Under the pieces are notes generated by a model. It saw only the letters and a list, made by a program, of their open reading frames with translations. It did no database searches and was not told the origin of the DNA. A program made the translations under genes and the position numbers. From contig JACRGB010000014.1 in assembly GCA_016212505.1 (NCBI GenBank), positions 1-54,498 on the forward strand: a DNA stretch of 54,498 nucleotides. Reading direction: 5' to 3'. The stretch comes from Microcaldota archaeon (lineage in GTDB: Archaea; Micrarchaeota; Micrarchaeia; Anstonellales; Bilamarchaeaceae). This document shows, piece after piece, positions 1,180-54,219 of this stretch. The first letter of the stretch is position 1. Every line of letters begins with the position of its first letter.

Positions 1180-1267
1180 TATAGCAAGCCACGAAAGTAA
1201 TGCAACCGGTTTTGCCGATACACACATCGGCGTGGCTTGCTATTGATGCCGCATTTTTATTGCGGCA
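1180..1267 (+). repeat. Two-hairpin dispersed repeat, copy 1
   Basis: ATAGCAAGCCACG(1181-1193)/CGTGGCTTGCTAT(1231-1243) plus TGCCGCA(1247-1253)/TGCGGCA(1261-1267); copy 2 is inverted at 18920-19006. Confidence 0.9.
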
Positions 1268-1466: not shown

Positions 1467-2105
1467 ATGCCGTTAAACAAGTTAAAGCAATTGTTTGTCC
1501 CTAATGATGGTAATTTTTTTGAACTGATGCAAAAACAGGCTGAAATTGCATGTGCTTCATCGGCTATCCTTTGCGATATGCTAGTCGACCATACTGATCT
1601 GAAGGTAAAAACAAATAAGATCCGGCTTTTGGAGCATGAGGGCGACCAGCTTATGCGTGAAATTTATACTTCCCTAAACAATACTTTCATCGTACCAATA
1701 GACCATGGCGATATTTCCTCCCTTGCAAGCGGGCTTGATGATATTATTGATCTTATCGACCACATCTCCACCTTATTTGTTATCTATAAGCTCGATCAAC
1801 CTTCCCCTCCAATGGTACAACTTTCAAAAATCGTTATGGAACAGGCAACCGAGCTTAAGAGCGCAGTGGCGGCCCTAAACCATTCACGTACCTACGGCCA
1901 GGTTGCCAAGCACTGTAATAAGATCAAGAGCCTGGAAAATAAGGCCGATGAAATTTACCTTCGTGCTATCGAAGAGTTATTTGACCAAAACGATCCGATA
2001 CTGATAATAAAGCAAAAAGAACTCCTCGAATGCTTAGAATCAACGACCGATAAGATCGATAAGGTTGCACAGCATATTTCAGACATAATGATGAGGCACT
2101 CTTAA
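1467..2105 (+). CDS. DUF47 family protein (PhoU-like, Pit accessory protein)
   Basis: 212 aa PhoU-like helices, located immediately upstream of the PiT transporter. Confidence 0.85.
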   Translation: MPLNKLKQLFVPNDGNFFELMQKQAEIACASSAILCDMLVDHTDLKVKTNKIRLLEHEGDQLMREIYTSLNNTFIVPIDHGDISSLASGLDDIIDLIDHISTLFVIYKLDQPSPPMVQLSKIVMEQATELKSAVAALNHSRTYGQVAKHCNKIKSLENKADEIYLRAIEELFDQNDPILIIKQKELLECLESTTDKIDKVAQHISDIMMRHS

Positions 2106-2164
2106 GTCTGCGTATGGGTTCGCGTATGAGTAATTAGTAACTTTGAGCTAAGCGGGTTGATGCT

Positions 2165-3175
2165 ATGTTAGAACTAATAATATTTACGATCCTGATGGCA
2201 CTGGCATTTGATTTTATCAACGGGTTCCATGATAGTGCTAATGCGATTTCGACTGTAGTAGCAACGCGGGTGCTCACGCCTATGCAGGCCGTTTCCATGG
2301 CTGCTGTCGGAAATCTTATCGGACCGCTATTTTTTACAACTGCAATTGCAGCCACAATAGGAAAAGGCATCATAGATACAAAAACCATCCAGGGCCTTCT
2401 TCCCGGAGACACGTTCGTAGTCATGATCCTTGCGGCACTTGTAGGTGCGATAGTATGGGACCTTATAACCTGGTTTTTCGGGATACCGGTTTCGAGCAGC
2501 CATGCCTTGATCGGCGGATTGATCGGCGCGGCACTGGTGGCAGTTGGCCCGAATGTCCTGCTCCTTGATGGCATCGGCAAAGTGCTTCTCTTTATCGTGG
2601 TCTCGCCAGTTGTGGGTTTTGTTGCAGCATTTCTGCTCGCACTCATCCTCATGCGTGTATTTCGAAAGAGCGCGCCAGCAAAAATCAACCACTATTTTAA
2701 GTCACTTCAGCTATTCTCGGCGTTTTTCTATTCAGTAACTCACGGGACTAACGATGCACAAAAAACAATGGGGGTAATAACCATCCTTCTGATCGCAGGG
2801 GGCTTCTTAACAAAATTCGATGTCCCACTCTGGGTTATTTTGGCCTGCCATATTTCAATATCCCTAGGCACCTGGTTAGGCGGTTGGCGGATAGTAAAGA
2901 CCATGGCGCATAAAATTACCCAGTTACGGCCTTATCAGGGGTTTTGCGCTGAAACTGCAGGCGGTGTAGTCCTGGTCCAGATGGCTGCAATGGGAGTTCC
3001 GGTCAGTACTACCCATGCAATTGCAGGTGCAATAATGGGCGTTGGTTCAACAAAGAACCCAAAAAGCGTGCGATGGGGCTTGAGCAGGAGTATAGTCATG
3101 GCGTGGGTAATAACTATCCCGTTCAGCGCGGTTGTTGCAGCCGGCTCGTTTTTGGTCCTGCATTACTTTTTGTAA
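2165..3175 (+). CDS. pit: Inorganic phosphate transporter, PiT family
   Basis: Signature FDFINGFHDSANAISTVVATRVL and second repeat FYSVTHGTNDAQKTMG; many TM segments. Confidence 0.95.
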   Translation: MLELIIFTILMALAFDFINGFHDSANAISTVVATRVLTPMQAVSMAAVGNLIGPLFFTTAIAATIGKGIIDTKTIQGLLPGDTFVVMILAALVGAIVWDLITWFFGIPVSSSHALIGGLIGAALVAVGPNVLLLDGIGKVLLFIVVSPVVGFVAAFLLALILMRVFRKSAPAKINHYFKSLQLFSAFFYSVTHGTNDAQKTMGVITILLIAGGFLTKFDVPLWVILACHISISLGTWLGGWRIVKTMAHKITQLRPYQGFCAETAGGVVLVQMAAMGVPVSTTHAIAGAIMGVGSTKNPKSVRWGLSRSIVMAWVITIPFSAVVAAGSFLVLHYFL

Positions 3176-3319: not shown

Positions 3320-3353
3320 TCTTATTTTTCTCTTAACCTTTCTTTTATTGTAT

Positions 3354-3401
3354 CGGAATTTGTATAATTCCGCTGCTGAAAAATTTTTGCGAAAATTTTT
3401 C
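3354..3401. repeat. Palindromic module array, copy A
   Basis: CGGAATT-TGTAT-AATTCCG (3354-3372) and GAAAAATTTT/AAAATTTTTC (3378-3401). Confidence 0.8.
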
Positions 3402-3511
3402 ATTGTATGGCCAGGACAGTGCCAGGCCGATTTTTTTCTTTTATTAACAGCCGAGAAATCCCACTACTGTCAAATAAATGAATTTATAAAGTTCCAAGAT
3501 GATATTTCCTC

Positions 3512-16842: not shown

Positions 16843-17639
16843 AAGTAGGATTAGTACAGATGGAGATAACCCATGGGAATCTTCAATCTAACTTAATCAA
16901 AATACAAGAATTCATAAAAGAAGGAAAGAAAAAGAAACTTGATATTATTGTATTTCCTGAAGATGCATTAACCGGAATTGTACGTGAATTTCCAGATCTG
17001 GTTGATTCAGAAGGCAAATACCGCTCCATTTTTAGTAGGCTTGCAAAAGAAAATTCAATAGACATTCTTTGCGGCAGTTTTGTTGAACGTGTTGATTCAA
17101 AACTTTACAATACTTCTTGCTATTTTGATAGTAATGGCAAAATTCTTGGCGAATATAGAAAAATTAATCTCTGGCACAGTGAGCGTGAGTATATTCATAA
17201 GGGAAAAAAAATCGTAGTATTCGATACTCGCTTCGGCAAAGCGGCTCTTGCAATTTGTTGGGACCTTTCTAATTCATATCTCTTTCGAAAGATAGCTCAA
17301 AAAGAAGTGAAACTAGTTTTTGTCCCTAGCTTCTGGTCTGATGGAGGTACTCTAAGTTCTGTTTCAGCAGAAGCCCGAAATATAGATTCATTTTGTCATG
17401 TTCGTGCCCTTGAATGCGAAGCTGCAATTATTTATGTAAATGCGGCAGGAACATATCGCAATGAAACTCTTGCAGGCCGTTCCCAAGTTGCTTTGCCTAC
17501 TAAAGAAGCAATAAAAATTACTCATAATAAGGAGGCTTTGCTTGTTGCAGATATTGATTTATCTATTCTTGCCCATGCTGCATCTGTTTATAAAATTAAA
17601 TCTGATCTCTTATCTGGTTATCATGAAATTAAAGCGTGA
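16830..17639 (+). CDS. Carbon-nitrogen hydrolase (nitrilase superfamily)
   Basis: Glu-Lys-Cys layout: FPEDALTG, YRKINLWHSE, ALAICWDLSNSYLFR. Confidence 0.85.
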   Translation: MVIMKVGLVQMEITHGNLQSNLIKIQEFIKEGKKKKLDIIVFPEDALTGIVREFPDLVDSEGKYRSIFSRLAKENSIDILCGSFVERVDSKLYNTSCYFDSNGKILGEYRKINLWHSEREYIHKGKKIVVFDTRFGKAALAICWDLSNSYLFRKIAQKEVKLVFVPSFWSDGGTLSSVSAEARNIDSFCHVRALECEAAIIYVNAAGTYRNETLAGRSQVALPTKEAIKITHNKEALLVADIDLSILAHAASVYKIKSDLLSGYHEIKA

Positions 17640-18960
17640 AATAAATCTTCCAGAAGCCATTCTTTATGGAGTTGGCATCCTTGTCGGTGCGGGAATTTAT
17701 TCGCTAATTGGGATTGCAGCCGGCGTAGCCGGAAATGCTCTTTGGCTTTCCTTTGCCCTTGGCGCTTTCGTTGCAATATGTACGGTATTTAGCTACGCCG
17801 AACTTTCCGGCATTATCAATCGTGATGCAGTTGAATATCATTACACTAAAAAGGCATTTTCAAGTCCAGTTTTATCTTTTATCATCAGCTGGCTGTTAAT
17901 TATTGCATCTATTTTGGTAGCGTCTACTGTTTCAATAGCATTTGCAGGATATTTTTCAGGGTTTTTTGGTGGTTCACCACAAGCAACCCAAGCAATTGCA
18001 ATTTTACTAATACTTGCGATGAGCTCCATAAATTATCTTGGAATAAAATATTCTGCATTATTCAATTCCCTGGCTTCTGTTTTGGCAATTCTGGGTTTGC
18101 TTCTCATAGTGGTTTTTGGATTTCTTTTCGTTCCTCCTGCAGTCACTACGCATGCTAACTTTTTCGAACTTCCCCCATTAGGATTTCTAGGTGTTATTAG
18201 CGGAGTCTCATTGATTTTCTTTGCATATATAGGATTTGAAAATCTTGCAAATTTAGTTGAAGAGATCCAGAATCCTAAGCATAATCTTCCAAAAGCCCTT
18301 ATAATTTCTCTTTTGATTTCCACCATCATCTACATTCTCGTTTCCATTTCAGCAGTCAATATTGCAACTCCTGCAGAACTTGCTTCAACTAATGCCCCTC
18401 TTGCGTTTGTAGGTTCACGCATCTTGGGATCGTTTTCACCTCTCATTTCCATAAGTGCCCTTTTTGCAACTGCAAGTTCCTGCCTGATCTTCCTATTGGC
18501 AGCGTCCAGGATGATCTATGGCATGGCCGAGTCCGGTGCGTTGCCAAAAGTTTTCTTTTCAGTCAATAAAAACGGCACTCCCTCTTTTGCCTTAATGGTT
18601 TCAACAATTGCGGCACTTATCTCACTTTTTTTATTTAGTATGACCAAAGCAGCAGAAATTGCCAACCTGAGCGTTTTCATTGCATATTTAGCAGTTAATA
18701 TTTCTTTGATTGTCCTATCAAAAAGAGCAGCACATCAAAAGAACACTGTTTTTTCCAGTCCAAGAGTATTCGGGATTCCAATTTTTGCATTTTTGGGAGC
18801 GCTATCCTGTATTTTCTTTTTGGCATTCTTTTCGGTTGAAATCTGGGCCATGGGAATAGTTTTTGCTGCTTCTGGATTGTTACTTTGCTTTATGCTGGGT
18901 CGTTTTAGGATTTATGGCCGCCGCAGGAAAAATGCGGCATCAATAGCAAGCCACGCCTAG
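17623..18960 (+). CDS. APC-family amino acid permease
   Basis: INLPEAILYGVGILVGAGIYSLIG and many TM segments; the likely start is the ATG at 17623 overlapping the upstream gene. Confidence 0.85.
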   Translation: MKLKREINLPEAILYGVGILVGAGIYSLIGIAAGVAGNALWLSFALGAFVAICTVFSYAELSGIINRDAVEYHYTKKAFSSPVLSFIISWLLIIASILVASTVSIAFAGYFSGFFGGSPQATQAIAILLILAMSSINYLGIKYSALFNSLASVLAILGLLLIVVFGFLFVPPAVTTHANFFELPPLGFLGVISGVSLIFFAYIGFENLANLVEEIQNPKHNLPKALIISLLISTIIYILVSISAVNIATPAELASTNAPLAFVGSRILGSFSPLISISALFATASSCLIFLLAASRMIYGMAESGALPKVFFSVNKNGTPSFALMVSTIAALISLFLFSMTKAAEIANLSVFIAYLAVNISLIVLSKRAAHQKNTVFSSPRVFGIPIFAFLGALSCIFFLAFFSVEIWAMGIVFAASGLLLCFMLGRFRIYGRRRKNAASIASHA

Positions 18961-19006
18961 GTAAACACCACTAGATTGTGCCGCAAAACTTTCGTGGCTT
19001 GCTATA
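18920..19006 (-). repeat. Two-hairpin dispersed repeat, copy 2 (inverted)
   Basis: ATAGCAAGCCACG(18943-18955)/CGTGGCTTGCTAT(18993-19005) and GCCGCA(18920-18925)/TGCGGC(18933-18938); overlaps the permease 3' end. Confidence 0.9.
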
Positions 19007-20966: not shown

Positions 20967-21057
20967 CAAGAAACGCTACGCGTTTCTTGACTGTCTTGAA
21001 GCTTTGCTTCAAGGACAAGTATAGTTGATCCAGCTTTTTTTGCTGGATCAGTATACT
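20967..21057. repeat. Palindromic module array, copy B (three consecutive hairpins)
   Basis: CAAGAAACGC/GCGTTTCTTG (20967-20989); CTTGAAGC-TTT-GCTTCAAG (20995-21013); TGATCCAGC/GCTGGATCA with flanking AGTATA/TATACT (about 21018-21057). Confidence 0.85.
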
Positions 21058-21443
21058 GATATTTCCTCGAGTTTCCTTCCAATCGCACTGGCATCGCTCC
21101 AGTTAATTGCAAAACTTTTCTCATTTTCCTTAAATACTGAAAGAGGGACAAAAACCCATGGTTCGCGGCTTCTTCTCCAACCAACATAGCAGTTAATTCC
21201 GCTAATATCCTCCCAGCGCCTCAGGTTGGTGAATTGTTCCCGCGTGATATTCAGATTGTCCTTTTCCCAGGCCTTTGCCTCGATCCCCAATTGGATTCCT
21301 CCCCTAAAAACTAGGATATCCGGGCTAAGGGAATTTACCCCGCTACCCGCAGCCCTGATGACACAAAAGCCGTTTGTAGAGAAATGTTCAATAAGTTCGC
21401 GTTCTGCGCGCGATCCTTTACGGTAACTGAGCATCAAAAACAT
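21048..21443 (-). CDS. hjc: Holliday junction resolvase Hjc
   Basis: KGSRAERELIEHFSTNGFCVIRAAGSG...DILVFRGGIQLGIEAKAW. Confidence 0.9.
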   Translation of the reverse strand: MFLMLSYRKGSRAERELIEHFSTNGFCVIRAAGSGVNSLSPDILVFRGGIQLGIEAKAWEKDNLNITREQFTNLRRWEDISGINCYVGWRRSREPWVFVPLSVFKENEKSFAINWSDASAIGRKLEEISVY

Positions 21444-32601: not shown

Positions 32602-32855
32602 GCCCCTGTAGCGCAGGAAACTTTTTAGTAAAAAGTTTGATCAAAATTAACTTGCTATTGTTGCAATGCAACAATGGCAGTCAAGAAACGCTTTCGCGTT
32701 TCTTGGCATGCTAAAAGTTTACGCAACGGTAGCGCGCGTCCTTGGTAAGGACGAGGTCGCGAGTTCGATTGAGTTTTGTGTCATGAGTTTTCGGTTTAGC
32801 ATTTTTCATAACCCGAAACAGAAAACGCAAAACTCTGGAAATCTCGCCGGGGGCT
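32602..32855 (+). tRNA. tRNA-Thr(GGU) interrupted by two introns (D-loop about 32618-32723; T-loop about 32767-32838)
   Basis: Acceptor GCCCCTG(32602-32608)/CGGGGGC(32848-32854); TA; D stem GCGC(32611-32614)/GCGC(32732-32735); anticodon arm CGTCC-TTGGTAA-GGACG (32737-32753); variable AGGTC; T stem GCGAG(32759-32763)/CTCGC(32843-32847); discriminator T. Confidence 0.85.
32651..32708. repeat. Palindromic modules inside the D-loop intron, copy C1
   Basis: TGCTATTGTTGC-AAT-GCAACAATGGCA and CAAGAAACGC-TTTC-GCGTTTCTTG; the latter stem is identical to copy B. Confidence 0.85.
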
Positions 32856-32872
32856 ATTTCTTTTTTTGTCGT

Positions 32873-33031
32873 ATTGGAATTTGCATGATTCCATGGCAAA
32901 AAGCTGAAAAGCTTTTTGACTGTCGCGGAGCTTTGCTCCACGCCAATTCGCACAAAATTTATGAAATTTTGTGCTTGTATCGTAAATCCTATCGGATTTC
33001 CAATGCTGAAAAATTTGCTGCAAATTTTTCA
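32873..33031. repeat. Palindromic module array downstream of the tRNA, copy C2
   Basis: ATTGGAA/TTCCAAT outer pair (32873/32998) enclosing TGGAAT/ATTCCA, CAAAAAGCT/AGCTTTTTG, GGAGC-TTT-GCTCC, GCACAAAATTT-ATG-AAATTTTGTGC, AAATCC/GGATTT; then GAAAAATTTGC-T-GCAAATTTTTC. Confidence 0.85.
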
Positions 33032-36812: not shown

Positions 36813-37562
36813 ATTCAAATAAATGAGGACAATTCCCACGAGTATTAGCTGGTGGACCAAATAAATCGCGAGTGAGTTTTTACCAAATGTCTCGAGCATC
36901 CTATTTTTTATTATATTGGAATTTGCAAATTCCAATGCAGACAAATTTTTGCTAAAATTTGTCCTTGTGCTTTTTTTGAAAATTTCCCGTCTTCTGATCT
37001 CCTGGCCCAGATAAATCCCGATCAAGACAATCCCGAACCAGGGAAGCAAAGGGTAATGGTCAAGTGCGGTATAATCCGGGCTGGTCAAACCCAGCCAAAA
37101 AAGATAGGGCGTACTTACATAAATCCCCGAAGTGATCAGTCCCAAACCAACAAGGACCAATCCAAACAAAACGTTCCATTTTCCGAATTTGAAAAAGAAC
37201 GGGGCGATTATTGTGCTTAGCGCTATCAGGTGGATTATGCCGAATTTTATGAATCCATCATGCGGATAAATCCATGTCACTGCGGTTATGAGCAGCGCAA
37301 CTCCGCCAAGAAGCAAACCTCTTTTCAGATGATGGGTGTAGCCTTCCTTGTTTCTGTTTTCGCTTATAGTCATAGATATTCCTACAATTGTTAGGAAAGA
37401 AACGCCAATTATTCTCTGAAAAACCACAAGAAAAATATTCTGTAAATTAACCTGTACGATCCCAAAATAGTTTAAATCAAAAATAAAATGATAAATTATC
37501 ATAAGTACTATTGCAATGCCACGAGCAATATCGATTTCTATAATTCTTTTTTCTTTCTCCAT
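36798..37562 (-). CDS. DUF1624/heparan-alpha-glucosaminide acetyltransferase-like membrane protein
   Basis: EIDIARGIAIVLMIIYHFIFDLNYFG; C-terminal LETFGKNSLAIYLVHQ. Confidence 0.75.
   Translation of the reverse strand: MEKEKRIIEIDIARGIAIVLMIIYHFIFDLNYFGIVQVNLQNIFLVVFQRIIGVSFLTIVGISMTISENRNKEGYTHHLKRGLLLGGVALLITAVTWIYPHDGFIKFGIIHLIALSTIIAPFFFKFGKWNVLFGLVLVGLGLITSGIYVSTPYLFWLGLTSPDYTALDHYPLLPWFGIVLIGIYLGQEIRRREIFKKSTRTNFSKNLSALEFANSNIIKNRMLETFGKNSLAIYLVHQLILVGIVLIYLNLVAT
36915..36963. repeat. Palindromic module pair inside the DUF1624 gene, copy D
   Basis: Perfect palindrome ATTGGAATTTGCAAATTCCAAT (36915-36936) and GACAAATTTT-TGCT-AAAATTTGTC (36940-36963). Confidence 0.9.
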
Positions 37563-54072: not shown

Positions 54073-54104
54073 AGTATCACTTAACGAAGATTATTTTTAA
54101 TTAT

Positions 54105-54202
54105 ATTGGAATTTGTATGAATTCCATTGATAGCTGTTGCTGTCAATTTTTGAAAACTTTCAGTTTTCAATCCAATGCGGACAAAATTTATGAAATTTTG
54201 TC
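54105..54202. repeat. Palindromic module array, copy E
   Basis: ATTGGA/TCCAAT outer (54105/54171) enclosing TGGAATT/AATTCCA, TTGATAGC/GCTGTCAA, TTGAAAACT/AGTTTTCAA; then GACAAAATTT-ATG-AAATTTTGTC (54180-54202). Confidence 0.85.
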
Positions 54203-54219
54203 CTCCTATTCGTCTGCGC

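Follow-up and report, generated by a model that had tools for sequence, protein, structure and literature searches.

The two-hairpin repeat that occurs twice in the window (the whole 54,498-nucleotide stretch of DNA analysed, contig JACRGB010000014.1 of a Microcaldota archaeon) is very probably a MITE derived from an IS630/Tc1-mariner transposon, that is, a gene-free transposon passenger with IS630 ends, as judged by comparison of its ends with those of full-length elements in the phylum. It is short (90 bp) and multi-copy, holds no transposase gene, and has terminal inverted repeats and a target duplication. As mobile DNA the element is of an ordinary kind; what sets it apart is mainly that each end has its own hairpin, and we claim no uniqueness for it among MITEs. 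Our analysis brings to light a family of small mobile elements, phylum-wide in the small-genome Micrarchaeota, together with its parent IS630 transposon. MITE and parent form a clean system in which to ask why MITEs acquire end hairpins that their parents lack.

An earlier note on this DNA had described a dispersed two-hairpin repeat and suggested that it may be a structured RNA or a protein-binding cassette with constant stems and a variable core. The repeat itself stands. The evidence favours the alternative that the same note had named, a decayed MITE, on the grounds of terminal inverted repeats shared with IS630, 2-bp TA duplications, many copies spread over many genomes, and loops of 14 to 46 nt; the idea of an RNA structure whose stem is constant and whose core varies thus gives way to the MITE reading.

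The two copies in the window

Both copies lie where they had been placed. Their 13-bp arms (ATAGCAAGCCACG) are exact at 1181-1193 (+), 1231-1243 (-), 18943-18955 (+), and 18993-19005 (-), four occurrences in the window against a chance expectation of 0.0016. The loop measures 37 nt in each copy and its sequence largely differs, with 18 of 37 positions identical. The second hairpin is likewise present, as TGCCGCA (1247-1253) and TGCGGCA (1261-1267) in copy 1 and as a counterpart in copy 2. As single strands, the two copies fold far better than shuffled sequences (z = -5.3 and -4.2). The limits of the 88-bp unit needed correction: the element is 90 bp long, at 1182-1271 and 18915-19004, with TA duplications flanking it.

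Copy 1 is a complete element on the forward strand (1182-1271). Its left terminal inverted repeat, TAGC-N8-AAAGTAATGCAAC (1182-1206, +), matches IS630 ends; hairpin 1 spans 1181-1243 (+) and has a loop of subfamily a, described below, and hairpin 2 (1247-1267, +) lies within the right end of the element. The TA duplications are at 1180-1181 on the left, included in the flank tally given below, and at 1272-1273 on the right, where the terminus of the element reads GCTC rather than GCTA. This copy lies in the upstream region of a MazE/PhoU-domain gene (206-1141, -), between that gene and a divergent PhoU_div-PHO4 pair (1467-3175, +) whose PhoU_div gene occupies 1467-2105.

Copy 2, also complete, is on the reverse strand (18915-19004, -), with hairpin 1 at 18943-19005 (-; loop subfamily b), hairpin 2 at 18919-18939 (-), and TA duplications at 19005-19006 (left end) and 18913-18914 (right end). 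It encodes the last ~14 codons and the stop codon of an amino-acid permease gene (17542-18960, +; PF13520, PF00324), whose product ends in GRRRKNAASIASHA. By inserting at the gene end, copy 2 has given the protein a new C-terminus and the gene a new stop codon.

Copies in the same genome and across the phylum

The assembly comprises 46 contigs and 1.48 Mb, is ~90% complete, and contains the window as contig C2. A DNA search combined with R1, a covariance model of hairpin 1, found 10-12 copies of the MITE in this genome, so that the repeat is not confined to the two occurrences first reported; six of the further copies also have a 37-nt loop. The eight full-length copies, all with this loop length, fall into two loop subfamilies: subfamily a, AAAGTAATGCAAC(C/A)GGTTTTGCCGAT..., comprises copy 1 and the copies on C24, C30, C10, and C14, and subfamily b, AAAGTTTTGCG.CTCA.TCTAGTGGTGTTTACC..., comprises copy 2 and those on C36 and C43. 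Over the 37 positions, 30-37 are identical within a subfamily and 18-24 between subfamilies. The impression of constant stems around a variable core was a sampling effect, the window holding one copy of each subfamily, and across genomes the stems do vary, with compensatory changes. The C42 copy retains only 14 nt of its loop, and in the C10 and C14 copies other palindromes have been inserted into hairpin 2. On C24 (L054, 4955-5290), ~300 bp of nested palindromes lie inside the arms CGGCTCTGTAGAA and TTTCTACAGAGCCG, with one IS630-type MITE among them.

Beyond this genome, a search of public genomes for the exact 13-bp arms gave no match. Matches to a relaxed arm pattern came from records titled Candidatus Micrarchaeota and 'Candidatus ainarchaeum' and from two contigs of Woesearchaeota. 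With R1, 32 of 148 relatives matched at E<=0.01 (own genome counted), and at a stricter cut 32 of 303 genomes across the phylum did so; the highest load was 52 R1 matches in one genome, both strands counted. The spread is patchy: the MITE is present in 4 of 16 other members of the genus, and most of the 148 relatives are without it. Loop length ranges from 14 to 46 nt across genomes and is therefore not conserved. Viral contigs gave no match.

Several variants accompany the family. Solo-hairpin or ~44-bp versions with TA on both sides (L168:483-529 in G110, L227:2526 in G051, and L237:2404 in G001) are possibly half elements or internal deletions. G102 holds ~8 copies of a ~140-bp derivative starting TAGCAAACCCGAAAAGTAATTCGACG (L219-L226), several of them at contig ends. 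Loci bearing the end motif in G102, G051, G124, and other genomes are derivatives, and those inspected held no transposase between their paired ends. Woesearchaeota JACPMR, of another DPANN phylum, carries a very similar element with two hairpins (L081:3605-3651 and L083:175-221), which suggests transfer or a common parent transposon.

Element ends and target duplication

The cross-genome consensus begins with a flanking TA followed by TAGC-N8-(G)AAAGTAATGCRAC, a variable stretch, an inner arm, and GCTA; after 2-5 nt comes the second hairpin, which closes with GC(T/A)(A/G) and a flanking TA. The 3' side of hairpin 2 bears the inverse motif (ATTACTTTT). In the genus of G107, G110, and G141, hairpin 2 is itself scored as a hairpin 1 in inverted orientation, two bases from the first, and hence the whole element is an inverted pair of hairpins.

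Among 62 complete elements read by eye, ~58 have TA on both flanks. Three have another dinucleotide at the left, and two of these repeat the identical dinucleotide at the right: CA/CA in the C24 copy (L054) and GA/GA in L137. The co-occurrence of non-TA flanks at left and right has P ~0.005 before identity is counted, and the matching identity lowers it further. Correction of palindromes does not explain these CA and GA repeats, whose orientation is direct rather than inverted. A tandem pair in G110 reads TA-MITE-TA-MITE-TA, with a single TA common to the neighbours. From these flanks, we read the flanking dinucleotide as a 2-bp target duplication. G110 and G107, the closest pair of carriers compared, share ~70% DNA identity, and no empty site was recovered from that comparison.

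IS630 transposons as probable parents of the element

A search with the IS630 DDE_3 domain found a truncated IS in G301 with ends TAGCTGACCAAGAAAGTCTTTTGG and TAGCTTTCCTTGAAAGTTTTTCGG, each preceded by TA. A MITE in the same genome begins TATAGCAAACCAAGAAAGTCTTCCGG, and the IS and MITE ends are identical at 21 of 26 positions. The best-inverted-repeat score around this IS (17/22) was equalled by 5 of 30 shuffles and is not significant alone, so the argument is built on the match of its ends to the MITE consensus and on the other IS elements. G301 is the only genome in which an IS and MITEs were paired, as one truncated IS beside them. With the G301 transposase as query, matches were found in 40 of 303 genomes and included full IS630 elements of ~1.15 kb with both ends (L247, L256, and L257), whose proteins of 346-349 aa carry DDE_3 (PF13358) and HTH domains.

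The sequence TAGC-N8-AAAGT..., preceded by TA, stands at both ends of the transposons in L241, L247, L256, and L257. Counted across 18 IS loci, the end motif occurs 17 times in 12 of them, where we estimate ~0.3 by chance. The IS consensus TATAGC...CC...AAAGT..T.c.ac agrees with that of the MITE (TATAGCAAACCAcGAAAGTAATgCgAC) wherever both are conserved. Elsewhere in the phylum, full-length transposons of the IS630 family have this 27-nt MITE end as their terminal inverted repeat, and this comparison identifies the conserved portion of the supposed variable core as the probable inner part of a transposase-recognised end. L247, L256, and L257 share the ends and the TA target with the MITE; unlike it, they encode a transposase, and their ends are not self-complementary.

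We propose that an IS630 transposase supplied in trans binds the 27-nt ends (TAGC-N8-AAAGTAATGCRAC), excises the MITE, and inserts it at a TA dinucleotide, which would thereby be duplicated, as the ends and flanks lead us to infer. This inferred binding is the sole support for a protein-binding cassette. The left end comprises the 5' arm of hairpin 1 together with the first part of its loop; the right end, formed by the 3' portion of hairpin 2, is degenerate in the window's own genome. The inner arms let each end fold on itself, something that the MITE does and its parent does not. The middle of the element would drift freely, which would account for loops that are alike in length and unlike in sequence: beyond its first part, a loop lies outside the transposase end.

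Neither the window's own genome nor the heaviest carriers G102, G107, and G110 (assemblies 89-90% complete) yielded an IS630 transposase, so its source in trans is lost, absent from the assembly, or in another organism. An autonomous partner in the same genome is usual for a MITE and not required, as relics and supply in trans are known. In the open-access literature we found no report of IS630 or of MITEs for DPANN or Micrarchaeota.

Hairpins at the element ends

The first 12 nt of 36 MITE ends have a complementary partner at a set distance (9-12 of 12 positions), whereas the best partner of 16 IS630 ends reaches 6-9 of 12, the same as in shuffles; the end hairpin is therefore a feature of the MITE. 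In a covariation test of stem 1, 10 of its 12 pairs show double changes. There are 70 double-change cells, where shuffles give 7.8 +/- 2.5, and the covariation score is 0.322 against 0.074 in shuffles and at most 0.05 in slid controls; because the alignment had been fitted to the model, it is biased towards pairing. Either selection on the hairpin or template-switch correction at palindromes could give rise to this covariation. Loop changes between the window copies restore local pairing (CTCAG to ATCGG opposite CCGAT, and CTCAG to CTAGG opposite CTAG), which, on our reading of the copies, fits template switching. Stems kept by compensatory change, beside parental IS630 ends that are unstructured, would also be expected of a phylum-wide class of double-hairpin MITEs whose self-complementary ends are selected structures, the hairpins (as extruded DNA or as RNA) being needed for spread or for host use. 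We offer this idea tentatively and consider it rather unlikely.

The same strong compensatory change in stem 1, and the good folding of both window copies, are what a conserved structured RNA or RNA-processing cassette would display, with hairpins that act in transcripts and an element that spreads or is kept for that purpose. We regard this explanation as very improbable. Template-switch correction at palindromes can also keep the arms alike, and the fitted alignment weakens the argument from stem 1. No Rfam covariance model matched in the window, and the contexts of the copies are unlike one another (a divergent promoter region, the 3' end of a gene, the inside of other repeats). The element is missing from most relatives, including most of its own genus, and the sole conserved part of the loop is the IS630 end.

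Comparison with known mobile repeats

Inverted hairpin pairs, arrays, and singles are described for REPINs (PMC3116915), in which a Y1 (RAYT/IS200-type) transposase mobilises a pair of inverted REP palindromes in single-stranded form. REPINs and BIMEs with RAYT resemble the MITE in these respects, since its two related inverted hairpins lie 2-5 nt apart and occur sometimes in arrays and sometimes alone, and a contig of UBA10214 (G024) holds both a Y1 fragment and a MITE copy. We nevertheless consider such an origin scarcely credible. Y1_Tnp is absent from the window's own genome and from G102, G107, G110, and G141, the latter being four of the heaviest carriers, so that the MITE has no Y1 partner there, and the presence of Y1 shows no correlation with MITE carriage. 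The 2-bp TA target duplication and the ends shared with IS630 point to a DDE transposase; Y1 elements are not known to make a target duplication. Integron attC sites were dropped as candidates, as the stems lack the GTTRRRY core.

By description, the IS630-type MITE resembles bacterial MITEs that target TA, namely Correia/NEMIS (Neisseria), RUP (S. pneumoniae, linked to IS630-Spn1), and ERIC, which are likewise ~100 bp long and non-coding, have terminal inverted repeats with 5'-TA and a target duplication, fold strongly, and are dispersed in intergenic regions and gene ends (PMC2229807). It differs from them in its DPANN host, in ends that match a Micrarchaeota IS630 group, and in the covarying hairpin at each end. 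It can also be likened by description to the Sulfolobus and haloarchaeal MITEs, which are archaeal and non-autonomous; a 2024 review of prokaryotic MITEs covers both, and its archaeal list names no DPANN genome (PMC10969869).

Other hairpin repeats

Another dispersed repeat with two hairpins, TATTGGAATT-n-AATTCCAAT-GC(A/G)-GACAAATTTT..AAATTTGTC, is present in at least 7 copies in the stretches read: in the window at 36910-36963, 54103-54205, 32870-32974, and 3350-3402, and elsewhere at L054 5180-5232, L055 4925-4982, and L056 2100-2160. The copies at 54103 and 32870 have extra hairpins inserted in the first hairpin. Small two-hairpin units, for example CAAGAAACGC..GCGTTTCTTG-ACTGT-CTTGAAGC..GCTTCAAG-GACA, were seen at 20967-21060 and 32610-32710 of the window and at L058 5090-5140; some are nested in other repeats, and short direct repeats (TCCA, CATG) occur at some insertion borders. 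Similar nested hairpin clusters in UBA10214 (L063, 3220-3500 and 3770-3870), one of them in an open reading frame, adjoin an IS200-like Y1 transposase fragment.
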